Below are positions 14,930 to 32,363 of a stretch of 64,000 nt of DNA, in pieces. Position numbers and translations under genes: made by a program. How positions within the stretch are numbered: the first letter of the stretch is position 1; every line of letters starts with the position of its first letter. Source of the DNA: Bacteroidota bacterium (GTDB lineage: Bacteria > Bacteroidota > Ignavibacteria > Ignavibacteriales > Ignavibacteriaceae); NCBI GenBank assembly GCA_020161395.1, contig JAIUOE010000001.1:248001-312000 (forward strand), read 5' to 3'. Under the pieces are notes generated by a model. It did no database searches. It was given only the letters and a program-made list of their open reading frames with translations, and was not told the DNA's origin.

Positions 14930-15835
14930 TCAGTTCGACCACGGAAGACTTAAATATAGCTTCCCAAGACTTGTGAGTTCACCCGGTGTCGGATTAAACA
15001 GATAGGTATATTTGTTGTCAGGGAGTCCACCCCTGCCGATAAACCACGCATATCGAAATACATCGCTTCTGCTTTCACAGATGGCTACCATCTGACGCAT
15101 TTGCTCTGCCTGTTTGTCGTAGGAGTTGATGTTGGCGTTCCAGTTTGCAAGTTCTGTTATCCAGATCTGCTTGTTATATTTTTTCAACCTGTCAAGCTGT
15201 GCGGCGAGTCCGTAGTCATACCAGTGAAAAGCGAGGTAATCTATGCGGGGAACCTTGCCCGGGTTGGCAATTTTGTATGCAGCATAAAAAGCATCAAGCC
15301 ACACAACGGGATCGGAATAACCTGTCATTGTCCCCCAGTTCATTGCGGGTCCGACGAGAGATATCGTTCTTCCCTGAGCTTCCAGGTCTGCTGCAACCTG
15401 CTCATACTTCAGCCAGTCAACCGCCGCCTGCTGAGGTGTTCTGTTTGCCTGATCAGTGAGATTTGGTTCATTCATAACGAGAATATATTTCACCTCGGGG
15501 TGGCTGAGCACAAAGTTTTTGATCGCGAGAATCTCGTTGTTGCTTGGAGTTCCACCCCAAATCATCGGTATAAATTCCATTTTGTATGTGGAATTGTAGC
15601 CCGATGGAGCTGTGGTCGTGTAAAACCAGTTGTACCACCATGATACCCCGCCTTTTAGAGCTTCGAGGTCTGCAGCGTTAGTGAGGTTGTATGCAATTCC
15701 CCGCTTGGGACTTTTAGTAATGGTCACAGGTGGTGGATCTCCGCCTGTTGAAACTGCATCCTGTTTGCATCCAAACAATATCATTATCAACGAGACTGCA
15801 ATAAAAATCTTAACTCTGTTTTTCATATAATACAT
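14930..15835 (-). CDS. GH128-like glycoside hydrolase, lipoprotein (probable beta-1,3-glucanase)
   Basis: A 301-residue lipoprotein with signal peptide ending MILFGC (lipobox LFGC). The TIM-barrel domain resembles the Asl1/GH128 glycosyl hydrolase family: YILVMNEPNLTDQ carries the acid/base Glu after strand 4, AFHWYDYG follows, and IWITELANWN carries the nucleophile Glu. GH128 enzymes cut beta-1,3-glucans, which fits the GH81, GH16 and GH5 neighbours. Two starts are possible, ATG at 15835 and ATG at 15826. The latter has a GAGA spaced 8 bases upstream and gives a cleaner signal peptide. It is the last gene of the glucan operon, 21 bases after GH81. Confidence 0.85.
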   Translation of the reverse strand: MYYMKNRVKIFIAVSLIMILFGCKQDAVSTGGDPPPVTITKSPKRGIAYNLTNAADLEALKGGVSWWYNWFYTTTAPSGYNSTYKMEFIPMIWGGTPSNNEILAIKNFVLSHPEVKYILVMNEPNLTDQANRTPQQAAVDWLKYEQVAADLEAQGRTISLVGPAMNWGTMTGYSDPVVWLDAFYAAYKIANPGKVPRIDYLAFHWYDYGLAAQLDRLKKYNKQIWITELANWNANINSYDKQAEQMRQMVAICESRSDVFRYAWFIGRGGLPDNKYTYLFNPTPGELTSLGKLYLSLPWSN

Positions 15836-15856: not shown

Positions 15857-18800
15857 CTATTTTAAAAGTACAATCTTTCGAACCGAGACAAAACTTCCCG
15901 ACTCCATTTTTACAAAAAAAACACCGCTTGAAAATTCCTTTGCATCGAAGACAACCGAATGAAATCCCGAATTCATCTCTTTGTTCACAAGCATCTCCAC
16001 TTTTTCACCAAGTGAGTTGTAAACGGCAAGTTTAACCAATCCCGGTTCGGGAAGTGAGAAACGAATCGAAGTGGAGGGATTAAACGGATTTGGATAATTT
16101 TGTTCGAGCGAAAATTCAACGGGCTGATTTCCTTCCGTGGCAATATCCGTAAGATCCCGTTTCACATTAATATAATTAAAATTGAATTCGGGTCCCTCTG
16201 CTTCAAATCTCATGATATGAACGCCGGCTTCAAGTCTTATTCCGGTTGAAACCACATCAGTCCAGAACTGCCATCCACCCGTGACGGGGACATTTTTCTT
16301 ACCTGTTACATTTATCCCGTCAATTGAGATATGATAACTTCCACCCCCGGGGACAGAAGCAACACGCGCCGATAATTCATAATATCCTGTTTCGCTCACA
16401 TTGATTGTATATTCCATCCACTCTCCGGTGACAATCCAGCCGACATCGTATCCACCACCGACATCTCCGCAGCCCTCGATATCGACCCCTTCGTTTGCAC
16501 GGAAAGGAACTCCCTTGTTTTGCGGGTCACTGTCGTGATAGGCAACACCTTCACCACCAAGATCGTATTCTTCTGCCTGAACAACTGCGGGAACGGTTTT
16601 TGGTGTGCCTGCATAAGGTGTGCCGTTTCCGTCAACTGTGATTACAATTTCTCCTCTGCCAACAAGGTTAAGGTTGTTTTTCACTGTCAGAACCGCCGTG
16701 TAAACACCAGGATACCTGTAGAGATGCGAGGTGTCAGCACTGAAAGCCTGGGTTGTATCTCCAAAATCCCAGTGATAAGCAGTGATGGTCCCGTTTCTGT
16801 CAAAACTGTTGCTCCCTTTGAACTTGACTGTAAGGGGAGCTTTCCCCTTTGAAATATCTGAAATCGGAACCGCAACGGGGAGACCGGCTCCCGAAGTGTC
16901 GCCGTTAAAAGAGTGCATCGAACGAGCAGGAACCGGCATCGAATAGCCGTCTGAAAAATTTACCACAACCGGGTTGTTACCCGGGTTATAAGCCACATAA
17001 GTCTTCTTCTGGTTGTTTGCCGTGAAAACCGCATATGTCGGGATGTCGGCAGTTACGGTGGTATTCAGTTTACCGATTCTCCTGAGATTTCCGAGCCAGT
17101 GATAAGTATGAGCTTTTGTCTCACCATCGAACGCTTCATAATTTGGATCGGCATAAAATTCGTTCATTGCAAATTGCGGATCGGCGAAGGCATACCACTG
17201 CCAGATTACATCTTTCCACTTGCGGGGTTTACTGCCGATTTCGTTGACCATTTCGGCGTAATTCAACCCTATATACTCGGGATTCCTTCCATGGTAAAGT
17301 GAACCACCTGTCATTGGCAGAAAATTAATTCCATGAATGAATTCAGGATCTGCACCAAACCATGTCGAGTGAACTCCCTTCCCTCCCCAAACCATTCCAA
17401 GAGCTTTCCTCGGATATGCGGCAGGGAATGTGGCATCGTTTATATCGAAGAAATATTGCTCAATTGCTGATCTTTCATTCGCATAGAGATAGATACCAAG
17501 ATCACGAATTGTGTCATTCTGAGTTGCCGCGCCCCAAAGAGCAACTCCCGTTGCAAAGTTCATCGATTCGGAACTTGATTCTTCGTTGTTGCCGTCTCCA
17601 AAATCACCATGACCGGCTTCCCATGAATGACCCTCATACGGATCGAAACTTCTCAAGAAGGGGAATCGCCTGTCATTTCTGTCCCAGTTCACGCAATCTT
17701 TAATCAGCAGGTTAATCATCCCTCCCCATTGTGATTCAAGAGCCCATTGGGGATCATACTGAGCAACAGTTGCCGCTGCTATGATCAGATAACCATAATG
17801 GAAGTTGTGATCGTTAAGCTGGTTGTCAGCCCCGTATCCCGAGGGGTAAGCTGAAATGGTGTTCCAGTTCGCGATATACGACATCTCATGCCCGCCACCG
17901 ACAGTAAGCCATGCTTCGAGTCTGGTTTTAATCTGCTGAAGAAAATGATCGCGGGCAGCGGTCTTACCGAGCTGATCCGCTATGTGTACCACATTTGCGA
18001 ATCTGGCAATCGCCTTGCCGTTTTCATAAATCGGACCTGCGGGGAGAGTTTCGCGTGCAACCGTATCAATATATGCCGACAGGATGGAAGGATTATAAAT
18101 TCCCTCATTTGGAAGTGCCGGCAGGATTCCGTTAAAATCGTGAGTCGTTGAAAATGTGCTTCCGTCAAATATCCTCATTTGTCCACGGACTGAGACATAG
18201 GAATAGCTCGTGAGTGGTGCGGTCGTATTCAGCCACTGGTGCCTGAAGAGGGCTGTAAGGGTACTGTTAAGATTTCCGGCACTGCTGTCTTTAAGAACTG
18301 TCTGAAGAGTAAAGTTTGAAACCACTTTCGCATTTTGCTTGTCGTAGTTCCACGAGACAGTACTTCCGGTTACAAATGCATAGGCTCTTTTTCTGTAAAA
18401 CTCAAGTGTTGCAGGGGTGTTGTCGGGTAAAACAGCGACAGAAAGGAAATCCTTACCGTTAAGGTTCGAAACAAGTGTTGTGGTACCTGTCCATACCGAA
18501 CCGGCAGGAGCGAAAATACCGTAATGTCTGCCCGCAACTGTCAGCCCGACCACACCGTTTGAATTCGACCATATAACCGGGGTCTCAGTACATACAACCT
18601 TTGCATTTCCACCTGTCATGGTAAAATATGCATAGGGAAGACCGTGTCCGATTGTCGATTTCATCGATCTGACACCATCATTCCATGAGGCTGTCACTGT
18701 CCAGTCACCGTAACTGTCGACCAGAGTTCTTGAGGCACCAAGTCCCTCAACTCCGACTGTTAGCTGTTGTTGATATGGATAGAGATAATCAACAGCAGCG

Positions 18801-19141
18801 TAAACGGGGTTTAAGGTGTAACCCATGCCAAGTCCGTCACTTCCCGCCTTAACAACCAAGGGAAGGACATACATCGTGTTTGAATGCTGACTGCCATAGA
18901 AAGGGAATATCAGGCTGCTCCACCAGTCATTGGTTTGAACAGGCTGATTGAAATTTGAAGAAACTTTTGGAACCACAGGAGAACCCTGGGAGGAGGATGG
19001 ACCAACGGCTCCGGAAGGAAGGACGGTGCTGTAACTTCCGTTGCCAACCTGCACGGACTGGCTGTAGATAATTTCGCCCTGACAAACAAGGAGCACAACA
19101 ATAAATAAAAAAGAGCTGAATTGTGATTTTTTCAGACTCAT
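15857..19141 (-). CDS. GH81 endo-beta-1,3-glucanase with PKD, CBM6 and T9SS sorting domain
   Basis: A 1,094-residue secreted laminarinase. Signal peptide (to about 28), then the GH81 domain (about 35-730), with NDWWSSLIFPFYG at its start, the catalytic-region blocks LNDHNFHYGYLI and GNNEESSSESMN, and a long alpha-helical C-part. A PKD domain follows (about 775-860, YHWDFGDTTQ), then a CBM6 module (about 870-1005, VVQAEEYD, GVDIEGCGD, VGWIVTGEWMEY) and a T9SS type A sorting domain (QNYPNPFNPSTSIRF). It hydrolyses long beta-1,3-glucans at the surface or outside the cell. The TTG at 19162 is rejected as the start because AAAAGGAG lies just upstream of the ATG at 19141. Confidence 0.93.
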   Translation of the reverse strand: MSLKKSQFSSFLFIVVLLVCQGEIIYSQSVQVGNGSYSTVLPSGAVGPSSSQGSPVVPKVSSNFNQPVQTNDWWSSLIFPFYGSQHSNTMYVLPLVVKAGSDGLGMGYTLNPVYAAVDYLYPYQQQLTVGVEGLGASRTLVDSYGDWTVTASWNDGVRSMKSTIGHGLPYAYFTMTGGNAKVVCTETPVIWSNSNGVVGLTVAGRHYGIFAPAGSVWTGTTTLVSNLNGKDFLSVAVLPDNTPATLEFYRKRAYAFVTGSTVSWNYDKQNAKVVSNFTLQTVLKDSSAGNLNSTLTALFRHQWLNTTAPLTSYSYVSVRGQMRIFDGSTFSTTHDFNGILPALPNEGIYNPSILSAYIDTVARETLPAGPIYENGKAIARFANVVHIADQLGKTAARDHFLQQIKTRLEAWLTVGGGHEMSYIANWNTISAYPSGYGADNQLNDHNFHYGYLIIAAATVAQYDPQWALESQWGGMINLLIKDCVNWDRNDRRFPFLRSFDPYEGHSWEAGHGDFGDGNNEESSSESMNFATGVALWGAATQNDTIRDLGIYLYANERSAIEQYFFDINDATFPAAYPRKALGMVWGGKGVHSTWFGADPEFIHGINFLPMTGGSLYHGRNPEYIGLNYAEMVNEIGSKPRKWKDVIWQWYAFADPQFAMNEFYADPNYEAFDGETKAHTYHWLGNLRRIGKLNTTVTADIPTYAVFTANNQKKTYVAYNPGNNPVVVNFSDGYSMPVPARSMHSFNGDTSGAGLPVAVPISDISKGKAPLTVKFKGSNSFDRNGTITAYHWDFGDTTQAFSADTSHLYRYPGVYTAVLTVKNNLNLVGRGEIVITVDGNGTPYAGTPKTVPAVVQAEEYDLGGEGVAYHDSDPQNKGVPFRANEGVDIEGCGDVGGGYDVGWIVTGEWMEYTINVSETGYYELSARVASVPGGGSYHISIDGINVTGKKNVPVTGGWQFWTDVVSTGIRLEAGVHIMRFEAEGPEFNFNYINVKRDLTDIATEGNQPVEFSLEQNYPNPFNPSTSIRFSLPEPGLVKLAVYNSLGEKVEMLVNKEMNSGFHSVVFDAKEFSSGVFFVKMESGSFVSVRKIVLLK

Positions 19142-19190
19142 AAAGACTCCTTTTTCGGGCAAATTTATAATTATTAAAAGCGGGCACTTC

Positions 19191-19264
19191 CCGGAACATC
19201 AGTACTTCGGAACCCCGGAACCTCAGTACCCCCGAAGTTCTGAGGTTCCGAATCTCTGAGGTTC
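19191..19264. repeat. Reiterated GGAACCTC/CGAAGTTC short repeats
   Basis: The gap between GH81 and GH5 contains alternating CGGAACCCCGGAACCTCAGT and CCGAAGTTCTGAGGTTCCGA elements, a low-complexity dispersed repeat with internal inverted symmetry. A shorter fragment (TTCCGAAACTCCGAAGTTC) lies at about 3711-3729. Confidence 0.6.
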
Positions 19265-21252
19265 TACTTGAGCAGAACCATTTTTTTGGTCGAAATGAAA
19301 TTTCCGGTTTCCATGCGGCACAGATAAATACCACCTGCCAGATCTTTTGCATCGAATGAAACGGTGTATTCACCCGCACTTAAATCTCCGTTTACAAGTG
19401 TTGCCACCTTCTCGCCGAGTGTGTTGAACACACTAATGTTAACAAACCCGTCCGAAGGAATCGAGTATTTTACCATAGTGGAAGGATTAAACGGATTTGG
19501 ATGATTCTGATTCAGTGCAAATTCGGCAGGGGCTGCCTTTTCGTCCTTCACATCAGTGGAGATTAGAGTAAAATCAATGTTGCTCAGGTTGAATCCACCG
19601 GTGTAGAATCTGATCATGAATTTTCTGACTCCGGCAGTAAGATTCACATTTTCAAGTGTGACATATTGCCAGCTCTGCCAGCCACCTGTTGCGGGGACAT
19701 TGAGAAAATTTCCAAGCCCCTGACCATCCATCAGAAGGAATATGCTGCCGCCGCCGTTCTGTGAAGCCACATTGAGTGAGATATTGTATACCCCGCTCTG
19801 CTGAATTTTCACTGTGTACGAAAGCCATTCATTGTTGTCAATCCAGCCGACATCATAGCCGTTTGAAGAAAAATCGTTACATTTTTCGATGTCCACTCCG
19901 TCATTCCGGTACTCATAACCTGAATTGTAGGTTGTTCCGTTATTGCTGTTTTGATAAGCAACATCTGAATATGCCACTCCATTTCTTCCCATGTCGTAAT
20001 CGGGGGCATATATTGTCCCGGGGACAAGATTTTCAGCGTACGGTGTTGTCGCATTCGAAAAGGGCTGTTGTAAAAGAGAATGGATGTAGTCCTTGTTGTA
20101 AGTGCAAAGTTCGAGTTTTAAGGCATTTGCCTGTGCACTCAGGGCACTTTGAGCATACGATGCTGAAGGTCTGGAACCACTTCCACCCCAGTAATTCAAC
20201 AGAGTCTGGTATAGAGGCGAGAGCGTAACAGAGAGGGGACCCACTGCTGATTTAATTTTTTTGTGGGGCCAGGTTGCCCAGCCGATGTTATTGTTTTTCA
20301 TCAGTTCAGCCATTTCTGTCAGCCAGTGGTTTGAGTTTTCACCTGTTTCACCCAGCCAAAGAGGTCTGTTTGAACTGTTTCGGAGATCGAGCAGATACTG
20401 TATGGAACCTGTATTATTGGTATTCCAGTATTTATGAAAACTGTAAACCATATTTGCATCCCAGGGGGGTGTCAAGCCCGTAAAGTTGGTTGCAAACCAG
20501 TTACCTTCGATATAGATAATATGGTTTGTATCAACTGCCCTGATTGTGTCTGTGATCCGGATATAGAGATCCCGAAGAGGCTGGTTATTGGTTCCGAGGT
20601 CCCATTTGGGTTCATTCAGAAGGTCATAACCGCCGATCCATTGTTTGTCTTTGTATCTCTCGGCAATTTTTCGCCAGACCTTTACAGTCAGATCCCTGTT
20701 TTGGGCACTTTGCCAAAGGGAAGGAAGAGCCGAATTGTAATCACTTATCGGTTCATCGCTTTGTCCCCCTGGTGCAGCGTGCATGTCGAGGATAAGGTAA
20801 AGCTGATTTTCTTCACACCAGGAGAGGAGAGAATCGACAATATCAAATCCTTTTGTCAGAAACTGAGGCGGATTGGTATTTGTGGCAAACAAATTGTAGT
20901 GAAACGGCAACCTGATCGAATTATAACCCCAGGCTTTGATGGAATCTATGTCAATTTTTCTGACATAATTCTTTCTCCAGGTCTCATAAAATTGTTCAGT
21001 GTTCGCTTCACCAATAAGATCGACAATTTTAGCTCTTATCTGCCATTGTGCGTTGGCAAAGGCTGAAGTGTGGAGCATGTAGCCCTCCTGCAGCAACCAT
21101 CCACCCAGACCGATTCCCTTAAGGAAAACTTCCTGACCGTTACCTTTAACAATCGTTTTTCCGCTTACTTTAAGAAACCCCTGGGCAGAGGGAGTAGCCG
21201 TTAACATCAAACAGAAGACTGCCCCGGGGAACAACATCAACAAAGATTTCAT
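19264..21252 (-). CDS. GH5 glycoside hydrolase with CBM6 and T9SS sorting domain
   Basis: A 662-residue secreted enzyme. A signal peptide (SAQG) precedes a GH5 TIM barrel (about 30-370). Conserved blocks are FLKGIGLGGWLLQEGYM, NSIRLPFHYN and DMHAAPGGQSD, with acid/base E214 in YDLLNEP and nucleophile E302 in LGETGEN. A CBM6 module (about 420-560, GVDIEKCND, VGWIDNNEWLSY) and a T9SS sorting domain (NQNHPNPFNPSTMVKY) follow. The exo-beta-1,3-glucanase-like GH5 form and the neighbours suggest action on beta-1,3 or mixed-linkage glucan. A shorter paralogue without CBM6 is encoded at 50585-51793. Confidence 0.92.
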   Translation of the reverse strand: MKSLLMLFPGAVFCLMLTATPSAQGFLKVSGKTIVKGNGQEVFLKGIGLGGWLLQEGYMLHTSAFANAQWQIRAKIVDLIGEANTEQFYETWRKNYVRKIDIDSIKAWGYNSIRLPFHYNLFATNTNPPQFLTKGFDIVDSLLSWCEENQLYLILDMHAAPGGQSDEPISDYNSALPSLWQSAQNRDLTVKVWRKIAERYKDKQWIGGYDLLNEPKWDLGTNNQPLRDLYIRITDTIRAVDTNHIIYIEGNWFATNFTGLTPPWDANMVYSFHKYWNTNNTGSIQYLLDLRNSSNRPLWLGETGENSNHWLTEMAELMKNNNIGWATWPHKKIKSAVGPLSVTLSPLYQTLLNYWGGSGSRPSASYAQSALSAQANALKLELCTYNKDYIHSLLQQPFSNATTPYAENLVPGTIYAPDYDMGRNGVAYSDVAYQNSNNGTTYNSGYEYRNDGVDIEKCNDFSSNGYDVGWIDNNEWLSYTVKIQQSGVYNISLNVASQNGGGSIFLLMDGQGLGNFLNVPATGGWQSWQYVTLENVNLTAGVRKFMIRFYTGGFNLSNIDFTLISTDVKDEKAAPAEFALNQNHPNPFNPSTMVKYSIPSDGFVNISVFNTLGEKVATLVNGDLSAGEYTVSFDAKDLAGGIYLCRMETGNFISTKKMVLLK

Positions 21253-21278: not shown

Positions 21279-23522
21279 TTATTTTAGTGTAAACTTCGCC
21301 TGAAGATTATGAACTGTAACCATAAAATCACCTTTTTCAACGATTCTTTTATTCTGAAGACCAATAAATGAAAGGTGATCTTTGTTTATGACGAATGTTA
21401 CAGTTTTTGTTTCACCGGGTGAAAGTTCAATTTTTTCAAATCCTTTTAACTGTTTGTTGGGTCTGCTTACCGTACCAAACATGTCGGTCAGATAGAGCTG
21501 CACCACTTCCTTCCCTTTTCTGTCACCTGTGTTCTTAACATCAACGGTAACTTTTATTTCTCCGTTTTCAGTCATTTCAGAGGAGTTCAGTTTCAAATTC
21601 GAGTATGCGAATTTTGTGTAGCTAAGTCCATATCCGAACGGGAAAAGAGGATCATATTTATTTCCGTCAAAGAATTCGATCGGTTTGTAGTCGTAGAGAG
21701 TAATGCCGTTTGGTGATTTAGGATAGGTTATCGGAAGTTTACCACTCGGATTTGTCTTGCCGTACAAAACATCAGAAATGGCAACCCCACCCTGCATACC
21801 GGGGAGAAAAGCCACTACAATTCCGTCAACCTTGTCTGCTATTTCAGTGATTATTCTCGGTCTGCCTTCGAGCATTACGAGAACGACGGGTTTACCTGTT
21901 GCAATAATCTTTTTGGCATAGTCCAGTTGAGCCTTTGGAAGAGTCAGATCAGTAATGTTTCCCGGGGTTTCGCAGTAAGCCGGCTCACCGAGGCAGAGTA
22001 CAACAACATCAGATTGCTTTGCCAGCTTAAGTGCGTTCTCTACATCAAGTTCCTTATCAAATGTGCAACCTTCGTTAAAAATTATTTTTTTGGAAGACAC
22101 CTCGGAAACCATTGCGAGGGCAACTGTCTTTTTATCCTTCTGCATTAATGATTCCTCGTTACCCTGCCAGGTTACAGTCCAGCCACCGTTAAGTACTGTC
22201 AACAGGTTGGATGTGGGTCCTGTAACAAAAACCTGCTTGTCTTTATTAAGAGGCAGAACATTTTTGTCATTTTTAAGCAGTATAATCGACTCACTGGCGG
22301 CTTTAAGATTGGCTTCTGTGTTTTCAGGAGAAGCAAATTTTGGGAGAAGAGTCTTGTCCGGGTAGGGATTTTCGAAAAGCCCGGTTTTCATTTTCACATA
22401 AAGGATTCTGCTGACTGCTTCATCTATTCTCGACATCGGTACCTTGCTTTCTTTTGCAAGTTCGAGCAACAATTCATAGAAACTCAAATCAGTCGGTACC
22501 ATACTCATATCCACTCCTGCCATTACAGCAAGACGGACAGCTTCCTTTGGAGAATCGGCGACTTTATCGCGGGTAAAAAGTCTCTTGATATCCTCCCAGT
22601 CGGAGACGACAAATCCCTTGAACTGCATCTCACCCTTCAAAACTTCAGTAAGGAGGTGATAGTTTGCATGACCCGGTATTCCATCTATTTCCCCTGAATT
22701 GACCATAACAGAAAGGGCACCTGCCTTTACAGCAGCTTCAAAAGGAGGGAGGAAAAATTCTCTGAGAGTTCTCTCGGACATATACGATGGGGTTCTGTCG
22801 AGTCCGTTAAACGGGAAACTGTAGCCTACATAATGTTTCAGACATGCAATAAAACGGTCTTTTGGAATCAGGTTGTTTTCCTGGGAAGCTTTTACATAGA
22901 TGCTGCCGAGTTCAGATACGAGAAACGGATCTTCTCCCATCGTTTCCCAAAGTCTGGGCCACAAAGGCTGTCTGCCGACATCAAGAACGGGATTAAAATT
23001 CCACGGAATTCCCGAGGCGTATGTTTCGAGTGCAGTGATTTCAGCTCCCTTTTTTACCAGTTCACGGTTAAAAGTGGAAGCCATTCCAAGAGCCTGAGGG
23101 AAAAGAGTGGAATTTACCGTGTATGTGGCGCCATGAATCGCATCAATACCATAAATTACAGGAATGTTCAATCTGGTCTTTTTTGTGGCAATATCCTGTA
23201 TCTTTGTGATAACATCGTGCCAGTATTCGATCTCATGAGCTTTATCGTAAACATTGAGAATGGAGCCGACATGATATTTTACAATCACTTCTTCAAGCTT
23301 CTGAAGGTCGAGTTCGTGATGCCGGTCCTTGTTTCCCTGTTTTTTGGAAACTGCCTGGATTGTAAGTTGTGTCATCTGACCAACTTTTTCTTCAAGAGTC
23401 ATTTTCCCGACAAGTTTTTGGACTTCATCTTTAATTTCCTTGTCAGTCTTCTGAGCGAAGAGAACAACGGGAAGAAATGCCAGAAGGAATAATGTTATAA
23501 TTGACAGTCTGAGAGTTTTCAT
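21279..23522 (-). CDS. GH3 beta-glucosidase
   Basis: A 747-residue exported GH3 enzyme that releases glucose from the non-reducing end of beta-gluco-oligosaccharides. Signal peptide LPVVLFAQ, then the N-terminal TIM barrel (about 30-390) with GIDAIHGATYT and the nucleophile D308 in GFVVSDWEDIKRLF. The alpha/beta sandwich follows (about 410-620, GSWTV-like NGGWTVTWQG), then a FN3-like C-terminal domain (VQLYLTDMFGTVSRPNKQLKG). There is no T9SS sorting domain, so it is probably periplasmic, finishing oligosaccharides made by the secreted GH16, GH81 and GH5 enzymes. The spacing to GH5 (26 bases) supports an operon. Confidence 0.94.
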   Translation of the reverse strand: MKTLRLSIITLFLLAFLPVVLFAQKTDKEIKDEVQKLVGKMTLEEKVGQMTQLTIQAVSKKQGNKDRHHELDLQKLEEVIVKYHVGSILNVYDKAHEIEYWHDVITKIQDIATKKTRLNIPVIYGIDAIHGATYTVNSTLFPQALGMASTFNRELVKKGAEITALETYASGIPWNFNPVLDVGRQPLWPRLWETMGEDPFLVSELGSIYVKASQENNLIPKDRFIACLKHYVGYSFPFNGLDRTPSYMSERTLREFFLPPFEAAVKAGALSVMVNSGEIDGIPGHANYHLLTEVLKGEMQFKGFVVSDWEDIKRLFTRDKVADSPKEAVRLAVMAGVDMSMVPTDLSFYELLLELAKESKVPMSRIDEAVSRILYVKMKTGLFENPYPDKTLLPKFASPENTEANLKAASESIILLKNDKNVLPLNKDKQVFVTGPTSNLLTVLNGGWTVTWQGNEESLMQKDKKTVALAMVSEVSSKKIIFNEGCTFDKELDVENALKLAKQSDVVVLCLGEPAYCETPGNITDLTLPKAQLDYAKKIIATGKPVVLVMLEGRPRIITEIADKVDGIVVAFLPGMQGGVAISDVLYGKTNPSGKLPITYPKSPNGITLYDYKPIEFFDGNKYDPLFPFGYGLSYTKFAYSNLKLNSSEMTENGEIKVTVDVKNTGDRKGKEVVQLYLTDMFGTVSRPNKQLKGFEKIELSPGETKTVTFVINKDHLSFIGLQNKRIVEKGDFMVTVHNLQAKFTLK

Positions 23523-23568: not shown

Positions 23569-25365
23569 TTAGTTTAAGAGTACAAGCTTTTTTGTTTCAA
23601 GCGAAGAGGGTGTGGCGAGAGAAAAAAAATAGATGCCACTGGCACTCAACTCCTTCCTCCCGAGGGGGAAAGAATGTGATCCTTCTTCCAGCCAGCCCAG
23701 CTCTTTTTTAATTAACTGTTCACCCGTTGGACTGAAAAGGGAAAATGTAAAAAAACCGGGTTTGTTCACAGAAAAGGAGATAACCGTTTGTCCGTTAAAC
23801 GGATTGGGATAGTTCTGATTCAGGATAAATGATCCGGGAATATCGGTTGAACCTTCCTCGATACCGGAAGGCAGTTTCTCAATTACAATTCCATTAATCA
23901 ATGGTTTATCGAGATGTGTAACGAAGTGAAGGTCTATCTTGCCGTCGTTAACTGCGATATTGTTAAACTCTTTGATCAATGCAGTGTTCGCCCCGGCTTC
24001 TGAAAAAATGTCGAGCTGGTTGATAACTCTGCTGTTTTCGAGGAAGACACTGAAAATTCGCTTTCCTGCCTGTGTAAAATAGTTCTCTGCGAACATCAGT
24101 TTTACCTTGTAATTTCCATTTGGAACCCTCACGGTGTAAGTGGCGAGTCCGTATTTTTCACTTCTGAAAATTTCGTCTTCATCCGTTCCGTTGATCTGGA
24201 GTCCTGCAGAAAATGAGCCGTTCGAGCCATCAAGAGAACCGTAATCAGTTGTGAAACCATAGTCACTTTCGGGGAGATATCCGAGTTGAGCGGTTCCGCC
24301 ACAATTAATTTTAATGGGCCAGCTCCAGTTTCTTTCGAGAATTATCGAGATTGCCCGCGCAGCAATCGTGTTATTGAACCGGTCTTTCACATTCAGTACG
24401 ATAAGGTTTCTTGCAGAGGTGAAGTCCCATCCGTCAACGGTCAATTCTACGCTTTTCAGCCCCGTGAGGATTCTGGCAGAGGTTACAGTTGAACCGGGAA
24501 TGTTGAAGTTTCCAATTGTTTGTGCCGATGCTGAATCGAGCTCTTCGGAAAAGTATGCAATCACTTTGTTGTTGGTCACTCTTGCAGACAGAAAAACAGG
24601 TGATTTCACATCGGTGTACCCGAGATTAACGGCATCTGTAAGACAGAGAATCAATTTCGAATTGGTGATAACCGCATTGGAGGCAACAAAATCACAACCA
24701 TTGCCATTGAATGTATGGGTTCCTTTTTCCCATCTTGCAGTATTCCAGTAGTCGAATTCATCCGACCAGGAGAGAGAAAAATTGTTACCGGTTCCGTAGT
24801 TGCCCAATCCCGGTGTATAGGTGTAATACTTCACCCAGTCATAATATGCAAAAGCGGGAAGAGCATTGGGATCGAAGACACCCGCCCAGTTGGTGTAAGT
24901 GGGATTCCAGATGTTCATCATCAGTTTTTGAGCTTTGTTCAGGGTCTGGATGTGTGCTCCTGTTTGTCTGTACACTTCGACACCGTCGACAAACCAGGCG
25001 ACATAGTTTGGAGTCCATTCAAATGCGTAGGTATGAAAATCAGCACTCGGGAGGAAGTTCAAGGGGTAATGACTCTCATGATTCACCTGATTCGGGGTAA
25101 TGGCGTTGAACTGGATATCATTCTCATATCTGCCGAGAATTTCGATATCGATCTCGTTCCAGTCCTGGATACCTGTGCTAAACTCGTGATAAGTAAAGAA
25201 AGAAGAAAGCATTCCTTCGCGGGCGGCAGATTTCAAAGAAACCTCGAACCTCCCGTAAAGGTATGTCTGCTTTGTTCTGAACTCGGCACCTTTATAGTCC
25301 TTTGCAGAGAGATATTCCGTGAGCAGAATGGTAAGAGCAACAAGTAGAAGCAGTTTTTTGGTCAT
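23569..25365 (-). CDS. Circularly permuted GH16 beta-1,3-1,4-glucanase with malectin-like and T9SS domains
   Basis: A 598-residue secreted lichenase-type enzyme. After the signal peptide the mature protein begins KDYKGAEFRTKQTYLYGRFE, and the catalytic motif E71-I-D-I-E75 follows early. The strands that normally open a GH16 domain (FSLSWSDEFDYWNTARWEKG) come last, at about 195-245. This is the order of the naturally permuted Fibrobacter succinogenes 1,3-1,4-beta-glucanase, which also starts SAKD. An Ig-like segment (about 250-340), a malectin-like module (345-510) and a T9SS sorting domain (NQNYPNPFNGQTVISF) follow. The TTG at 25392 is a less likely start than the ATG at 25365. Confidence 0.92.
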   Translation of the reverse strand: MTKKLLLLVALTILLTEYLSAKDYKGAEFRTKQTYLYGRFEVSLKSAAREGMLSSFFTYHEFSTGIQDWNEIDIEILGRYENDIQFNAITPNQVNHESHYPLNFLPSADFHTYAFEWTPNYVAWFVDGVEVYRQTGAHIQTLNKAQKLMMNIWNPTYTNWAGVFDPNALPAFAYYDWVKYYTYTPGLGNYGTGNNFSLSWSDEFDYWNTARWEKGTHTFNGNGCDFVASNAVITNSKLILCLTDAVNLGYTDVKSPVFLSARVTNNKVIAYFSEELDSASAQTIGNFNIPGSTVTSARILTGLKSVELTVDGWDFTSARNLIVLNVKDRFNNTIAARAISIILERNWSWPIKINCGGTAQLGYLPESDYGFTTDYGSLDGSNGSFSAGLQINGTDEDEIFRSEKYGLATYTVRVPNGNYKVKLMFAENYFTQAGKRIFSVFLENSRVINQLDIFSEAGANTALIKEFNNIAVNDGKIDLHFVTHLDKPLINGIVIEKLPSGIEEGSTDIPGSFILNQNYPNPFNGQTVISFSVNKPGFFTFSLFSPTGEQLIKKELGWLEEGSHSFPLGRKELSASGIYFFSLATPSSLETKKLVLLN

Positions 25366-25393
25366 GTTTTTATTTTCTTTTATGAGAAACAAC

Positions 25394-25433: not shown

Positions 25434-26462
25434 TTAGAATGTTACGGACATTGTAAATTTCTGAATATTGGAGAACCTTCCAAAATCCTGGTAGGCGTAA
25501 TCAAATATTACAGAAACATTGTTCATAAGATGCTGTTTTATACCAAATCCGGCGGTAAATCTCTCTTCTGAATCCTGAAGGAAAGCTGATTTGTAGCCGC
25601 CGCGGATAAAGAGGAATTTATTGAAGCAATATTCAGCTCCGATGTTCAGACTTTCATAGTCATCACTCGGGTGGGTTGCATCAACAGCAACGATAAGGTT
25701 GTGCATTTCCGATTTCACGGGGGTGTACATTATGCCAACTCTGAAATTCAGAGGGAGTGACCATGCACCTGTTTCAAGATATGCAGGAATCTTTCCGTTG
25801 TTTCCGGTACTTCCCGGATCGAGATCGTGAAGCACGAGATTTGAGTTTCCGAGCAACTGAACTTTTGTCCCGAAGTTAGAGATCGACATTGCAAGCACTG
25901 CATCGTCAAATGGTGTAACATACTGCACACCCATATCGATAGCGAAAGCGGTTGCACTCATTTTCCAGATACTCTGGTAGATGAATTTCGGGTTAAATCC
26001 AATCGAAAACTTGTCCGTAAGTCTGATGGCATAAGCAAGGCTTATAGCCACATCACTCGCGGTAAAGGTCTCTCCCGTACCACCGGGATAATCGATTGTT
26101 GTCACCTTCATTTCACCTACATTGGAACTGAGGAAACTAAAACCAATCGTTCCCATGTCACCGAGATTATAGCTGGCAGCAAGGAAATTGTATTTTATAT
26201 CCGCAATCCATGATGTGTGATCGAACATCATCTGAAAACCGTCTGCCTTTGTAAGACCTGCAGGATTCCAGTAGATTGAACTTACATCGTTTGAAGCACC
26301 GGAGAAGGCACTTCCCATCGCAACCGATCTTGCACCCTGACCTATGGAAAGGAAAGGGGCTGCGGTTGTTCCGCGTTTGGAGACATCAGACTTGAAACCT
26401 TGGGCAAATGCCACATTTGCGGAAATAGCAATTAACATTATGATAAATATCTTCTTTTTCAT
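25434..26462 (-). CDS. PorV/PorQ family outer-membrane protein
   Basis: A 342-residue outer-membrane barrel with signal peptide (NVAFAQG). It matches the PorV/PorQ (UPF0164) family: SIGQGARSVAMGSAFSGASNDVSSIYWNPAGLT is the diagnostic N-terminal block, and the chain ends with an aromatic strand (FTMSVTF). PorV is the shuttle that carries T9SS cargo to the attachment complex; paralogues encoded next to secreted substrates are common in this group and may serve as dedicated partners. It sits 14 bases after the large T9SS-like surface protein gene and just before GH16, so it probably helps export or anchor products of this locus. Confidence 0.88.
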   Translation of the reverse strand: MKKKIFIIMLIAISANVAFAQGFKSDVSKRGTTAAPFLSIGQGARSVAMGSAFSGASNDVSSIYWNPAGLTKADGFQMMFDHTSWIADIKYNFLAASYNLGDMGTIGFSFLSSNVGEMKVTTIDYPGGTGETFTASDVAISLAYAIRLTDKFSIGFNPKFIYQSIWKMSATAFAIDMGVQYVTPFDDAVLAMSISNFGTKVQLLGNSNLVLHDLDPGSTGNNGKIPAYLETGAWSLPLNFRVGIMYTPVKSEMHNLIVAVDATHPSDDYESLNIGAEYCFNKFLFIRGGYKSAFLQDSEERFTAGFGIKQHLMNNVSVIFDYAYQDFGRFSNIQKFTMSVTF

Positions 26463-26476
26463 TTCAATCCGTCCGC

Positions 26477-29400
26477 TTATTTGATTAGAGCAAATTTGCC
26501 GATGTGTTCTCCGACATTCGGTGCATCAACATGATAAATGTAAACACCGTATGCAGCGTCCATACCGTCATCTGTAACAAGGTTCCAGGAAATGCTGCCA
26601 TCAAGATAGGTCGAGTTTTTATAAAGAGTCTTTATAAGCTGACCTGTGATGGTGTAGATCCTGACCGTACATTCACTCGGAAGATTTACAAAATCGATCT
26701 TCCTGTCTCCTCTGCCGGTTGAATTGAGATTTCTTCTTTCCCATGAAGCAGCACCCAGATATGGATTTGGCACCACATCAATTTTACCAAGCTGTCCTTT
26801 GGCAAGACTGTTGTCTATACCGGCTGACTTGGTGGAGAAAAGGATTTTATCACCTTTCTTGAACGGTTTCTTTGTTGTGATCCGGTATTTGTCATTGGCA
26901 GCAGGGTAAACCAGCGGAGCATTTGGATCAGCAGGCACATCGTAGGAGAGGTTCCATGCAAATCTGATATTGGCAGGTACAGGTGAACCCTGGAATTCCA
27001 GAATCTGTATCTGATCTCCAATCGAAAGATCCTTCGAACCGTCATTGTCTTTTACGGCAACCTTGGAATACTTTTGTTCAGTGTTGTTCCAGACTTTCAA
27101 ATTCAGAGGGAATTTTGTATAAAGCGGTGGTGACTGAATAAAACATGTATCCTGTGGTGTATCGTAGAAAGTGATTTCATAGTCAGCTGGCCATGCAATT
27201 CCTCTAACCGGGGTCGGATCAGGAGTTACCAGCATTGTAAGATTACTCTTTCCTGTTACCCAACCTGTCAGTGTATCTCTGAGTGAGACAACCGAATCAT
27301 TCAATACGGAAATTGCAAGTCCGTCGAATGGAGGACCAATTCTCTCGGCTCCAAAATAGGAGGAATCGACTGTGAAAAGTGTATCAACAACTCCGTTGTA
27401 GGATTTTATGACTTTATAAGAAAGAGTCTTGTAAAGCGGATATGTTGTTGTCGAATTGAATTCAACATCGTATGACGCACCGTTCTTAACAGCCGAAGGA
27501 TCGAGAACCGTTACATTCAGAGCACCTGAACCGATACCCTGACTGACATTCCTGATGTCTCCGGTGATGTTGGGAGGAAGATATCCGGCAGCCGGTGCAT
27601 TAGGAACTATGACCGCACAATTGATATCCACAAATTGCAGATTACCGGCGAAATCTTCTGTAATGATTTTTGTGCACTCGGAGGGTTGCAATCCGGCTGT
27701 ACCGAAATTCGGATCTCCCATGTCGTAGGAAACGAGAGCGTAATAGTATTTTTGTCCGTTGTTAACATCATTATCAATATAGGAATAGCGCAAACCTGAG
27801 TTGTCGCCTCTCCAGAAATGAGCTCCATTGATGCCAACGGGATCAGGACCTTTTATACTGTCTTTAAGGTCAAACTGTGCAATCGGTTTCCAGTATTTGG
27901 AAGAGCCTTTTGAATCAGTGATGACTTTAATGTCGTTAAATTCAGGTTCCTGACTTCTGTAAATGAGGTAACCTTCGAAATCCTTCTTGTATCCCTTTGT
28001 GGGATCGTTGTTCTGGAAACCAAGGAAAGGATCGCGGGACTCTTCAGCTATGTTGTCCCAGTAAAGAAATACTTTGCCATCACCCGGAACCGCAGTAAGC
28101 TTTGGTTTCAACGGAGGTTTCGAGAAGTTGTAGTTCGAGTTGTAAATCTGCTGTACTGTCTCTTTGTTGAACATGATGTCATTCAGGTCTTCGCCAAAAA
28201 GAAGAGCCATCGAGAATCTCTCTCTCAGACCCTGCTGAAGCGGGAAAGGACCGGAAGCAAAAACCATACTGATGTTTGCTCTCTGGAGCGAGGTGTCGAA
28301 GGTACCTGCCGACATCTTCAGCCACATCGATTCATCATCTTTTGGCCAGCCGCCGCCTGTTCCACCCTGACCAAGTCTGTAGAGTGAAACGGCAGTAAGA
28401 CCTATCTGATCAGATTCGTCTTTGTCTGTTTTGTCGAAGTTTGGTTCGCCATCGGTAGGTATTCCGTCGCCTTCGCCTTCATCAGGTCCGGTATATTGTC
28501 TGTCATAAGGACCAACACCGTCTTTACCAACATCGTCGTTCAACGGTTCATTGTCAGCAGGATCCCATTTGCCGTTACCGTTAAGGTCGGTATATCTGAC
28601 CCAGTCGCCGTCGTTATCGATATTGTCGTCTCTTTTTTCATCAGTAAGACCATCCTGGTCGTTATCGATATTGTCGTAGCCGTTTCCCGGGCTTTCGAGA
28701 TAGGCATATCCGTAGTAACCCGTTTTCCAGTTGTCAGGAAGTCCAAGACCGTTGTTGTCATAGCAATATGCCATGTCAAGTTTCAGATCGAAAGAGGCGT
28801 TGTCATCTTCAGAGTCGTCTGTTCCGCCCACACCGCAGTCGGTATAGAAACCAAAGAGTGTTTTTGGATAGTTGTAATCTGAAATGTTCACAATGTCATA
28901 ATGCCAGAAAATAATATCTTCTGCGAGTACATGTGACCACTGGAAGCCCCTCACTTCAACTCTTAAACCGAGACCGCCACGGTTAGTATCCACTGCAATC
29001 GGTTTAAAGAAGAAGGGATTTCTCATGAATTCCTTGTCCTTCGAATCATCCATGACGAAGAAGGTCTCGAAATCAGAGTTTAAAACTCCTCTTCCGAAAT
29101 AACCGTACCAGTATCCGTCCCACTCGGGAGTAAGATTGAGAGCAGGAGGCCAGAATTTGGGCCACGAGTTCGGGTCGGTATTAATCGAAGGTTTCTTGGA
29201 TGAGGAATTGTTGTAACCGGGCACGGGTTCAAATCCCCAGATTTCACCTGTTACAGGATCTTTATCCATCCATTCACGATAAGAAGTCTGGAGAGGATGC
29301 ACTACCTGTCCGGTACCGGGGGCAGTTATTTCGGAAGAAATAAGCACGCTTACACCGTCGAGGTACGAGTGACCTGATCCCTTGGGCCATTCACCCGAAG

Positions 29401-29596
29401 GCTGATAGGGCCACTGACCAACTTCACCGTTGTTGTAGAAGAGAGTTCTTACCTGATTCCCGTCCATCACTCCTTCTCTTCTAAAGGAAATGTTGCCGTA
29501 CTGATCGTTACGGTAGCGCTGGGTGGAAGGGGATACCTGTGCAAAAACCAGTTCGGTAAGGAGCACAAGGGAAATTATAAATATTTTCTTTAACAT
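26477..29596 (-). CDS. Large T9SS-associated surface protein with Asp-rich calcium-binding-like repeats
   Basis: A 1,039-residue exported protein of a family I cannot name. The ATG at 29596 (MLKKIFIISLVLLTELVFAQ signal, GGAG 7 bases upstream) is preferred to a longer frame starting at 29689. Residues about 300-400 are rich in D/N/G (DNIDNDQDGLTDEKRDDNID), resembling EF-hand or thrombospondin type 3 calcium loops. An FN3-like part follows (LTAVPGDGKVFLYWDN). The C-terminus (IRFAW..., then VRIYTITGQLIKTLY, ending HIGKFALIK) is a T9SS-type sorting domain variant. It lies between the TonB receptor (16 bases) and PorV-like (14 bases) genes, so it may be the outer-membrane partner of the receptor, in the place where SusD would sit. 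Confidence 0.75.
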   Translation of the reverse strand: MLKKIFIISLVLLTELVFAQVSPSTQRYRNDQYGNISFRREGVMDGNQVRTLFYNNGEVGQWPYQPSGEWPKGSGHSYLDGVSVLISSEITAPGTGQVVHPLQTSYREWMDKDPVTGEIWGFEPVPGYNNSSSKKPSINTDPNSWPKFWPPALNLTPEWDGYWYGYFGRGVLNSDFETFFVMDDSKDKEFMRNPFFFKPIAVDTNRGGLGLRVEVRGFQWSHVLAEDIIFWHYDIVNISDYNYPKTLFGFYTDCGVGGTDDSEDDNASFDLKLDMAYCYDNNGLGLPDNWKTGYYGYAYLESPGNGYDNIDNDQDGLTDEKRDDNIDNDGDWVRYTDLNGNGKWDPADNEPLNDDVGKDGVGPYDRQYTGPDEGEGDGIPTDGEPNFDKTDKDESDQIGLTAVSLYRLGQGGTGGGWPKDDESMWLKMSAGTFDTSLQRANISMVFASGPFPLQQGLRERFSMALLFGEDLNDIMFNKETVQQIYNSNYNFSKPPLKPKLTAVPGDGKVFLYWDNIAEESRDPFLGFQNNDPTKGYKKDFEGYLIYRSQEPEFNDIKVITDSKGSSKYWKPIAQFDLKDSIKGPDPVGINGAHFWRGDNSGLRYSYIDNDVNNGQKYYYALVSYDMGDPNFGTAGLQPSECTKIITEDFAGNLQFVDINCAVIVPNAPAAGYLPPNITGDIRNVSQGIGSGALNVTVLDPSAVKNGASYDVEFNSTTTYPLYKTLSYKVIKSYNGVVDTLFTVDSSYFGAERIGPPFDGLAISVLNDSVVSLRDTLTGWVTGKSNLTMLVTPDPTPVRGIAWPADYEITFYDTPQDTCFIQSPPLYTKFPLNLKVWNNTEQKYSKVAVKDNDGSKDLSIGDQIQILEFQGSPVPANIRFAWNLSYDVPADPNAPLVYPAANDKYRITTKKPFKKGDKILFSTKSAGIDNSLAKGQLGKIDVVPNPYLGAASWERRNLNSTGRGDRKIDFVNLPSECTVRIYTITGQLIKTLYKNSTYLDGSISWNLVTDDGMDAAYGVYIYHVDAPNVGEHIGKFALIK

Positions 29597-29612
29597 TCTG
29601 AAGCTCCGGGAA

Positions 29613-32330
29613 TTAAAAATCGAAACCAATTCCAACTCTGATCTCTCTTGGTGTCGAGTACATCGAAGGATTGTTAATGTATTCTTCAATAGTGTTCAAA
29701 CCGATCACATCGACAGCGTACTGAGTGTTCAGGTCCGCATTGGCTCTTCCGGTTGTTCCGTAAACACCAAACTCATTTTTGATGTCCAATGCGTTATAGA
29801 TGGAGATATAAGTTCTTACATTGACGCCGAAAACATTGAATATCTTGTCTGCTCTTATATCAAGATTGAAATAAGTCGGTTTTATTCCACCATTTTCGAA
29901 GCGGACACCTTTTGAGATCTTTGGATCTTCTGTGTAAGGCATACCAGAACCATACTGGAATATTGCACCTACTGTCCAGTCACCCGGAACACCGACATTG
30001 ACACTCAGGTTGAATGTATGTCTCTGATCCCAGCTAAGAGGAACAACCGTTTTCGATTCTTCAATCGGTGGATTAGTCTGATTCTTATTGTAAACAGCAT
30101 AAGGATCAGAGGAATTACCTTCGGCAATCTGATAAGTGTAATCAAGTTTTGCGCTGAAGTAGTTTGAGAATCTCTTGTCGAGAACGAGTACGAGACCTCT
30201 TACATTTGCATAATCTCTGTTGATGAATCGTGCATATTTGAATCCTTCATAGGTATTCACGATTTCCATGCCGAGCCAGTTTCTGATGTCTCTGTAGTAA
30301 AGTGACATGTTCAAAGAAATATCCGCGAAAAGTGCCTGCTGAAGACCTATTTCATAGATGATATTCTTTTCAGCATTCAGGTCGGGATTTCCGACAACTG
30401 TATTCAGGCTGTTACCCGGTCTTACTATGAAGTCGGGGTTCTGGTAGAGATTTTCGAATGAAGGAATCTTGAAGAAATGTCCATAGGAGAATCTGATGAT
30501 ACCACGGTCGGTAATCGGGAAGGAAGCTCCGAGTCTCGGGCTTACCTGCCACTTTGCATCCGCATCAATCCACTGGTCTGCACCGGGGAATGAAGCGTTG
30601 CGGGTCGGATTCTGTTTGTTGACGGGCATTCTTGCATTTGATTTGAAGTAATCGAATCTGACACCTGCATTTATGATCATGATGTCATATTCCATTTTGT
30701 CCTGGATGTAAGCCGACACTTCAAGCGGTTTACGGGAGTATTCGATATTCGAACCCTGATCGGACATGGTACCTACAGCAGGATATCCCGGGGTAAAGAT
30801 CACATTTCCGAGGGTGTCAATCTGACCGTCGGTCAGGTTTACGAGGTCGAGATTGTGACTGTAAATTTCATGTTGTCTTGCTTCAATTCCAAGCCCTATC
30901 TTGTGTTCTTTCGAGACCTGCGAGGAAAGGGAGTATTGAGCTACATAAGTTCTCGTGCTTCTGTCGTATCTTCCACCCTGGTTTCCACCCGAACGGAATG
31001 TGTAGCTTGAAAGGGCTATACCCTGTCTCGGGTTGACATATCTCGGATCGAAAGGATCTTCGTAAAGATAACCCTTAAACATGTAGTTGTTGACCGAGAT
31101 TTTTAAAGAATGGTTTGTCGAGGATGAAAGATAATTTGTAATTTGGAAATTTTGTATCCAGTCATCTCCGTAATTCGTCATTACACCGTCAGGTGTCCAT
31201 GAAAATCCGTGATCATATCCTTTGCTCTTCGTCTTGTCCCAAAATACAGAGTATGTGAAAGCTACAGTAGGGAGAGCGTATGTGAGTTTTGCATTCAACG
31301 AATATTTGGTATAGGGATTCATTGAGACATATTCACCGTCACCTGTATTTCGTGGAATCCAGAACGATTTATCGTTGGGTATAGGATAGAACGGAACATC
31401 ATCAGTAACATTATAAACTCTTTTCCCGTAAAGATGTCCGATATTGTCGAAATACCTTCCTGTGACGAAGAAGTACAGATTCGGAACCGGTGTAATTGGA
31501 CCGCTGAAGGTAAGTTGGAAGTTTTTCTGAGCGAGCCTGTCGATCTTGTCGAGATTTCTGAAAATATTGCTGTGTGTTGTAACAAAATTTCCGACATAGG
31601 CAGAGAAATCAGTCCGGAATTTATTCGATCCCCCCTCGGTAACAATATTGACGACACCGGAAAGAGCCTGACCATATTCTGCGTTAAATGTCCCTGTAAT
31701 CACCTCCATCTGTCTGATGGATGCATTTTCCACTTCAATGTTGAACCCTCCGTTAAACGGGTCGGTAACCGAAACACCGTCAATAAGGTAGGCAACATCG
31801 TTAGATCTTCCACCTCTGAAGTGACCGTCTATGACGCCTGCCTGCAGATTTACTATCTGGCTGACATTTTCCACGGGCATCATTTTAATATCATCGGAAG
31901 AAATCGTTACCGAAGTGGAGGTAAGATCCTTCTGAACAAGCGGTCTGTCTGAAGTGATAACCACTTCCTTGTCAAGAGTGATGCCTGCATTTTTCAACTT
32001 TACATCGATATTTGTTGTAAGGTCGATTTTTACAAGCACTTTCTCCATAATGGTTTTTTGATAACCAACCGCAGTAAAAATCACCCGGTAGGTTCCCGGT
32101 GGGACATTATTGATGGCGTAGTATCCGTTTGCGTCTGCGACACCACCGAGGAATGTACCCTCGAGAACAGCCGTTGCACCAATAATTGGCTCGCCTGTTT
32201 TCTCGTCCATCACTCTGCCGGATATCTTGCCCGTCACTCCGCCGTAAGCGATACCGGAACCAATAATGCAGAGCAACAAGAACACTGCTGCATAAATATT
32301 ATTATAAAAATGGTTTGTTTTTTGTCTCAT
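29613..32330 (-). CDS. TonB-dependent receptor with carboxypeptidase-regulatory-like domain
   Basis: A 905-residue outer-membrane receptor for energised uptake, probably of glucan oligosaccharides. Signal peptide, then a CarboxypepD_reg-like domain (about 30-115, SGRVMDEKTGEPIIGATAVL, DANGYYAINNVPPGTYRV). The plug domain follows (about 125-240, VSQIVNLQAGVIDGHFRGG, AYLIDGVSV, EYGQALSGVVNIVTEGG), then a barrel of about 650 residues ending VGIGFDF. No SusD partner is present. The annotated frame could begin at a TTG at 32342, but the ATG at 32330 (MRQKTNHF) is the natural start. Confidence 0.92.
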   Translation of the reverse strand: MRQKTNHFYNNIYAAVFLLLCIIGSGIAYGGVTGKISGRVMDEKTGEPIIGATAVLEGTFLGGVADANGYYAINNVPPGTYRVIFTAVGYQKTIMEKVLVKIDLTTNIDVKLKNAGITLDKEVVITSDRPLVQKDLTSTSVTISSDDIKMMPVENVSQIVNLQAGVIDGHFRGGRSNDVAYLIDGVSVTDPFNGGFNIEVENASIRQMEVITGTFNAEYGQALSGVVNIVTEGGSNKFRTDFSAYVGNFVTTHSNIFRNLDKIDRLAQKNFQLTFSGPITPVPNLYFFVTGRYFDNIGHLYGKRVYNVTDDVPFYPIPNDKSFWIPRNTGDGEYVSMNPYTKYSLNAKLTYALPTVAFTYSVFWDKTKSKGYDHGFSWTPDGVMTNYGDDWIQNFQITNYLSSSTNHSLKISVNNYMFKGYLYEDPFDPRYVNPRQGIALSSYTFRSGGNQGGRYDRSTRTYVAQYSLSSQVSKEHKIGLGIEARQHEIYSHNLDLVNLTDGQIDTLGNVIFTPGYPAVGTMSDQGSNIEYSRKPLEVSAYIQDKMEYDIMIINAGVRFDYFKSNARMPVNKQNPTRNASFPGADQWIDADAKWQVSPRLGASFPITDRGIIRFSYGHFFKIPSFENLYQNPDFIVRPGNSLNTVVGNPDLNAEKNIIYEIGLQQALFADISLNMSLYYRDIRNWLGMEIVNTYEGFKYARFINRDYANVRGLVLVLDKRFSNYFSAKLDYTYQIAEGNSSDPYAVYNKNQTNPPIEESKTVVPLSWDQRHTFNLSVNVGVPGDWTVGAIFQYGSGMPYTEDPKISKGVRFENGGIKPTYFNLDIRADKIFNVFGVNVRTYISIYNALDIKNEFGVYGTTGRANADLNTQYAVDVIGLNTIEEYINNPSMYSTPREIRVGIGFDF

Positions 32331-32363
32331 CGGAATATCCAATAGTTATCTGATCAAAACGAT

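Follow-up and report, generated by a model that had tools for sequence, protein, structure and literature searches.

A predicted circularly permuted GH16 beta-glucanase of the Fibrobacter type, joined to malectin-like and type IX sorting modules, in a genome of the Ignavibacteria

On the reverse strand of the window (the whole stretch of 64,000 nucleotides that was analysed), a gene at positions 23569..25365, with an ATG start at 25365, encodes a 598-aa protein whose glycoside hydrolase family 16 (GH16) domain has the strand order of the naturally permuted Fibrobacter succinogenes glucanase, and whose C-terminal part carries a malectin-like module and a type IX secretion system (T9SS) sorting tail. 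This combination had been put forward in a preliminary description of the sequence, and it is supported here by sequence order, by predicted structure and by trees. A topology known mainly from one rumen bacterium is common in the phyla surveyed, usually with one architecture. To our knowledge, natural permutation in GH16 has had a single worked case, one rumen enzyme, and permuted GH16 beyond Fibrobacter was not found in the titles and abstract openings of the open-access literature. Natural circular permutations occur in a number of protein families, and a passage of one paper counts "some bacterial beta-glucanases" among them, without saying there which are meant (PMC2395249); in the main text of a second paper, neither "permut" nor "Fibrobacter" is present (PMC6827312). 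The strand order, predicted fold, clade, catalytic residues, architecture and gene neighbourhood given below were computed in this analysis.

The open reading frame extends over 23569-25392 if a TTG start is taken, and the ATG at 25365 gives 598 aa. Read by eye, the first 21 or so residues of the protein (MTKKLLLLVALTILLTEYLSA; 25303..25365, reverse strand, as are all features of this gene) look like a signal peptide. According to alignments and model superposition, the GH16 domain consists of two segments: (i) segment A (residues 20-182; 24820..25308), which bears the EIDIE motif and corresponds to the C-terminal portion of a native-order GH16, moved to the front; and (ii) segment B (residues 196-244, FSLSWSDEFDYW...; 24634..24780), which comprises the strands that open a native-order GH16 and stand last in the permuted domain. 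Between them, alignments place a permutation linker (residues 184-195, TPGLGNYGTGNN; 24781..24816), which ties together the original C- and N-termini and has TPGQGEGGSD as its Fibrobacter counterpart. The landmarks of the preliminary description are where it had put them: counted in the translation, EIDIE occupies residues 71-75, the KDYKGAE opening begins at residue 22, and LSWSDEFDYW lies behind the catalytic half at residues 198-207. Membership in the GH16 family is indicated by the jellyroll, which scores 111.7 bits with PF00722 (cut-off 22; residues 19-159, profile positions 24-161 of 175), and by the E-x-D-x-(x)-E motif, here EIDIE. The NCBIfam equivalog model for BglS (NF047856) gives 166.3 bits over residues 11-181, under its 300-bit threshold; a permuted chain can match just part of that model. 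Profile annotation thus captures only part of permuted domains (19-159 by the Pfam GH16 family, 11-181 by BglS). The GH16 domain is 99% identical to the copy in a genome of the same genus (G003).

Behind the GH16 domain, beta strands in the predicted model outline an Ig-like linker domain (about residues 253-344; 24334..24609); of 37 homologues, 4 have a Pfam Big_5 match to this part (E 0.01), which the 598-aa protein itself does not. The malectin-like module (residues 352-493; 23887..24312) is recognized by Pfam PF11721 (E 1.7e-25; 90.4 bits, above the cut-off of 23), and model residues 327-480 superpose on human malectin (9ikp) with a Z of 17.9. A similar module, residues 710-886 of the Bacteroides uniformis beta-glucuronidase 5uj6, gives a Z of 23.3; in the window protein the ligand would be a glucan. 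The chain ends in a T9SS type A sorting domain (residues 519-595; 23581..23811), which scores 31.7 bits with TIGR04183, above the cut-off of 23 that marks type A cargo, and 20.5 bits with Pfam PF18962, below the cut-off of 27. The secretion machinery was checked through its component SprA, which the same genome encodes (TIGR04189, 967.6 bits, cut-off 200); export of the 598-aa protein by the T9SS is therefore plausible.

The permuted order is seen directly in alignments. Against PDB chains, phmmer aligned query residues 19-244 colinearly with residues 2-230 of the F. succinogenes enzyme 3axd (E 2.4e-54), a single alignment that bears out the likeness proposed in the preliminary description. 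Residues 27-244 align to the engineered permutant 1cpm, and Bacillus-type native-order lichenases align solely within residues 14-182. Among PDB sequences, the first 19 places go to lichenase-type glucanases and engineered forms of these, with xyloglucan enzymes and laminarinases ranking behind. In four close native-order GH16s (L141, L142:9949-10983, L143 and L144), the part matching query 162-225 (20.7-28.5 bits) precedes the part matching 2-165 (84.4-105.7 bits); more distant GH16s of related genomes are of native order too, with a weak first stretch (below 10 bits where reported).

An AlphaFold2 model, built on 37 aligned sequences, has a mean pLDDT of 91.0 and a pTM of 0.76, with uncertain packing between domains. 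Its nine top Foldseek matches in the PDB are all Fibrobacter chains. In VIA-align, the model superposes on Fibrobacter 1mve over 231 residues at 1.5 A (Z 34.5, 41% identity), on the engineered permutants 1cpn over 204 residues (Z 31.4) and 1cpm over 208 residues, and on native 1gbg over 159 residues (Z 19.3), using model residues 1-164. In alignment and model alike, the C-terminal half thus stands ahead of the N-terminal half within one barrel, as in the Fibrobacter enzyme, and segment B is, in the model, the missing part of the same barrel as segment A. Pfam does report a single GH16 stretch (19-159), in keeping with an ordinary GH16 topology that is followed by an unrelated second beta domain, the outcome against which the preliminary description had proposed structure prediction. 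That outcome was not seen and is very improbable: segment B lies within the superposition on 1mve, which rules out a separate second domain at the level of prediction, and its native-order homologues sit before the catalytic half. Still more improbable is a strand order faked by an assembly chimera or a frameshift. The relatives are mostly metagenome-assembled, but the order is identical in 80 of 80 named contigs (the best 80 of at least 499), more than chance would give, and in the solved Fibrobacter structures, and it recurs in Stygiobacter electus strain 09-Me (L123), a record without a MAG label; an assembly artefact was rejected on the order shared by the 80 contigs.

Compared with known enzymes, the permuted domain shares with the Fibrobacter glucanase (1mve, 3axd, 1zm1) the strand order, the cut site, the KDxxGAE start, the TPGxG linker, the catalytic motif and the aromatic residues. 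Unlike that enzyme, which presumably ends in a serine-rich tail, the window protein continues after its GH16 domain with Ig-like, malectin and T9SS modules. The native-order lichenases of subfamily GH16_21 (Bacillus 1gbg; 3i4i from a metagenome) have the fold, the EXDXE motif, the -1 Phe and other aromatics in common with it, but their halves are reversed, and 159 residues align sequentially. The permuted Bacillus enzymes 1cpm and 1cpn share the region of the cut (residue 59 of 2AYH; PMC2395249) but are laboratory-made.

Conservation of the active site was surveyed in 115 distinct permuted domains, that of Fibrobacter included. E71, the presumed nucleophile, is kept in 115 of 115; D73 is kept in 114, as is E75, the presumed acid/base. 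The only exception to this trio is a permuted GH16 paralogue (L023:2765-4585), in which the motif is altered to EIAFDF and which, by its sequence, is probably non-catalytic. Features described for GH16_21 are EXDXE without a beta-bulge and, in 1GBG, Phe92 (-1), Tyr94, Trp103, Trp192 and Tyr24 (PMC6827312). Among the 115 domains, the Phe92 equivalent is F in 114, that of Tyr94 is Y in 112, that of Trp103 is W in 111 and that of Trp192 is W in all 115; the 598-aa protein, by alignment and counting in 1byh, has F, Y, W and W at these four positions, together with EXDXE without the bulge. The Tyr24 equivalent, a tentative assignment based partly on the Bacillus N-terminus, departs from the subfamily pattern, as it is F in the window protein and in Fibrobacter, and F in 57, W in 57, K in 1 and never Y across the 115 domains.

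We infer lichenase activity for the 598-aa protein, which is likely a secreted, lichenase-type GH16 endo-beta-glucanase with a naturally permuted jellyroll that would cut mixed-linkage glucan on the cell surface. The clues to the substrate are split, with fold and residues pointing to mixed-linkage glucan, and the GH81, PF11790 and CBM6 of the window pointing to beta-1,3-glucan. It is conceivable, though unlikely, that the same permuted enzyme has beta-1,3-glucan, such as laminarin, curdlan or fungal glucan, as its main substrate. Its window neighbours (GH81, PF11790 and a CBM6-bearing GH5) would suggest this, and in 12 of the 80 named relatives (best 80) the locus also contains a native-order GH16 of the more distant type. 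On the other hand, EXDXE lacks the bulge and most of the GH16_21 aromatics are kept (features from PMC6827312), lichenase-type sequences fill the 19 best PDB places before any xyloglucan enzyme or laminarinase, and in the tree the permuted clade has native lichenases as its sister group and is distant from other native rows. Taking mixed-linkage glucan as the preferred substrate, the protein may work as follows. The short TPGxG linker would join the old termini, with the new termini opening directly ahead of the KDYKGAE strand, and the C-terminal tail would send the chain out through the type IX system. EIDIE would then supply the retaining catalytic pair for cleavage of mixed-linkage (1,3-1,4) beta-glucan, the malectin-like module might assist in holding the glucan, and the released oligosaccharides could pass to the adjacent TonB receptor and GH3 enzyme.

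The genes of this putative pathway lie on the same strand. Downstream of the permuted gene are a GH3 enzyme (21279..23522), a GH5 enzyme with CBM6 and a T9SS tail (19264..21252), an enzyme with a GH81 C-terminal domain, PKD, CBM6 and a T9SS tail (15857..19162), and a Glyco_hydro_cc enzyme (PF11790, which we take to be GH128; 14930..15835), all assigned by domain matches. Upstream are a PorV/PorQ-family outer-membrane protein (25434..26462; NF033709, 215.2 bits, cut-off 90), a large surface protein (26477..29689; in the open reading frame listing a 1070-aa frame from a TTG), in which no Pfam family was found at E 0.01, and a TonB-dependent receptor (29613..32342; domain match). G003 has the operon in identical gene order. 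In a survey of the best 80 named loci, with flanks of up to 5 kb and the best phmmer match per frame at E 1e-10, the PorV/PorQ-family gene occurs in 66 loci, the large surface protein in 60 and GH3 in 54; the TonB receptor is present in 31, a count limited by the 5-kb flanks, and GH5 in 24, where some matches are weak and may reflect shared CBM or tail parts. GH81 is found in just 2 of these 80 loci and GH3 in far more, and the common core is therefore independent of GH81. Many relatives have the cassette TonB - large surface protein - PorV-like protein - permuted GH16 - GH3. The cassette is not universal: among 21 permuted loci of 4.8-20 kb, 11 have the PorV-like gene and 10 are without it (L022-L026, L033, L142, L145, L146 and L148), and most of the divergent paralogues are among these 10. 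In the four loci of native-order kin (stretches of 5-14.5 kb), the PorV-like gene was not present. The triplet of TonB receptor, surface protein of about 1000 aa and PorV/PorQ-family protein has four copies in the genome (25434-32342 of the window, and C7, C10 and C15, that is L179-L181), where relatives of the large surface protein were found with a query trimmed at 29578. By analogy, this recurrence may resemble that of the SusCD pairs of Bacteroidota, and the triplet may be a differently built counterpart of a SusCD-type uptake module.

The wider distribution was followed by a pattern scan of named genomes, which gave at least 593 stretches, at least 499 of them encoding a relative; the best 80 were retained by similarity to the permuted domain, and so show conservation, not frequency. 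Their record titles name Ignavibacteria/Ignavibacteriales, Melioribacter, Bacteroidetes, Chlorobiota, Neomarinimicrobiota, Calditrichota/Caldithrix and KSB1, with a few bin-only names; Fibrobacterota records were not seen among these best 80 of at least 499, and the sole Fibrobacter sequence in the analysis is the PDB chain. The joining of the permuted domain to malectin and T9SS modules, which had been thought unusual, turns out to be the usual architecture: among the best 80 of at least 499, malectin is present in 75, 76 have the Ig-like part and 72 end in a sorting tail, and malectin and tail occur together in all 37 proteins chosen as full length (E 0.01). The members of the 80 without malectin are L105, L120 and L138 (363-385 aa), L125 (436 aa), which may be a broken gene, as a second frame after it continues the match, and L127 (885 aa). 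The last (L127:4839-7493) has, besides its permuted GH16 domain, a strong match to GH5 (552 bits with the GH5 protein of the window). Other contexts, with modules judged by eye, are LamG-like plus permuted GH16 plus a T9SS-like tail (L147 and L142:1588-3525), permuted GH16 plus LamG-like (L022) and short forms (L145 and L146).

A genome-wide search of 59 relatives, counting the window's own genome, gave a match at E 0.001 in 37 and a full-length permuted one in 27. Of 395 genomes drawn from the phylum, again with the window's own among them, 38 gave a match at E 1e-20 or better; 41 matches are listed, of which 37 reach the end of the permuted query, and the 4 that stop at 163-167 are native-order kin, which are thus found within the window's own phylum. 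In the phylum of a Neomarinimicrobiota genome, a match at E 1e-12 occurs in 56 of 199 genomes, and all but 2 of the 74 matches reach the query end; in that of a Calditrichia genome, 17 of 40 genomes match, with all 19 matches reaching it; and in that of a KSB1 genome, 30 of the 82 genomes have a match, and the 36 matches comprise 27 of full length, 4 that come from two genes which are broken or split, and 5 stopping at 161-168. In 167 plasmid records with GH16 matches, no single place has a match to at least 80% of the permuted domain. The Neomarinimicrobiota-phylum search also contains pairs of neighbouring frames, one of about 615 and the other of 370 aa, with a permuted domain each and less than 2 kb between the domain starts, for example G474:C14, G486:C115 and G512:C64. 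Within one 14.5-kb stretch, G312 carries both a permuted (L142:1588-3525) and a close native-order (L142:9949-10983) relative, a pair useful for study of the permutation event.

The window's genome has no sign of recent gain of the gene. Recent local acquisition was rejected on the shared operon order in G003 and on the presence of the core in other phyla; against that rejection, a search of G001, a further genome of the genus (90% complete), gave no match, and the gene occurs patchily in the relatives' genomes.

For the trees, permuted rows were rotated to native order. Before the first tree, 9 of 33 native rows, whose matches were cut short, were dropped, as were permuted rows at least 70% identical to a kept row, which reduced 115 to 50. 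The resulting quick tree of 74 rows gave an SH-aLRT of 81 for the permuted clade. In a careful tree of 69 rows, which left out five long rows (L037, L152, L022, L150 and L145) and in which seven rows untrimmable by motif were entered with extra residues, 48 permuted rows, Fibrobacter included, form one clade with support of 100/98, the bootstrap being not yet settled; native lichenases are its sister, and other native rows are far away. A careful tree of 37 rows (30 hand-picked permuted and 7 native) gave 100/99 and 98% of 200 bootstrap trees, again not settled, with 3i4i, 1byh and an Enterococcus GH16 as sister to the permuted clade. These data suggest that the permutation is most likely old, arose once, in a native-order lichenase, and that the Fibrobacter enzyme (FsBG) belongs to the same permuted clade. 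The preliminary description had offered both an old shared permutation and gene exchange between the phyla; the former fits better, and recent exchange is a possible but poorer explanation.

One old permutation is the best reading, and not a proven one, as FsBG and the window's family could have been permuted independently at the same site. FsBG pairs with L146 of the window's phylum (100/99), both on long branches. With 69 rows, the AU test did not reject a separate origin when FsBG and L146 were placed with the native lichenases (p 0.202); a quick tree of 67 rows favoured a separate origin (p 0.935), with a free search that was poor, being worse than the constrained tree; and the linker motif TPG, present in 79 of 115 distinct permuted domains, is absent in 36, L146 among them. 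We consider an independent origin improbable, as the cut site is identical, the TPG linker is shared by those 79 domains, FsBG falls within the permuted clade in both careful trees, and a separate origin is rejected (p 0.0244) in the 37-row set, which was chosen after the two earlier results. Both halves of FsBG also score higher against permuted than against native rows (137.6 vs 88.4 bits for half A, 53.6 vs 30.0 for half B).

On the single-origin reading, a broader proposal can be made, which we regard as evenly balanced between right and wrong: the permuted barrel would be the prevalent lichenase of the FCB group, having arisen once deep in the group from native-order lichenases that survive, and become fixed in a T9SS/TonB/PorV-family cassette for beta-glucan uptake that takes the place of the SusCD type. 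If this is true, the rumen enzyme is a stray, simplified branch of an FCB permuted lineage. With 115 distinct permuted sequences and native kin in the same phylum, the states before and after the change of topology can be compared. Elsewhere in the window, at 37194-44350, a protein of 1940 aa matches a Sacsin domain and also has a domain of the ssDNA ADP-ribosyltransferase DarT; next to it is a Macro plus HsdM_N protein; judged by these domains, the pair is perhaps a DarTG-like toxin-antitoxin system within a large fusion.
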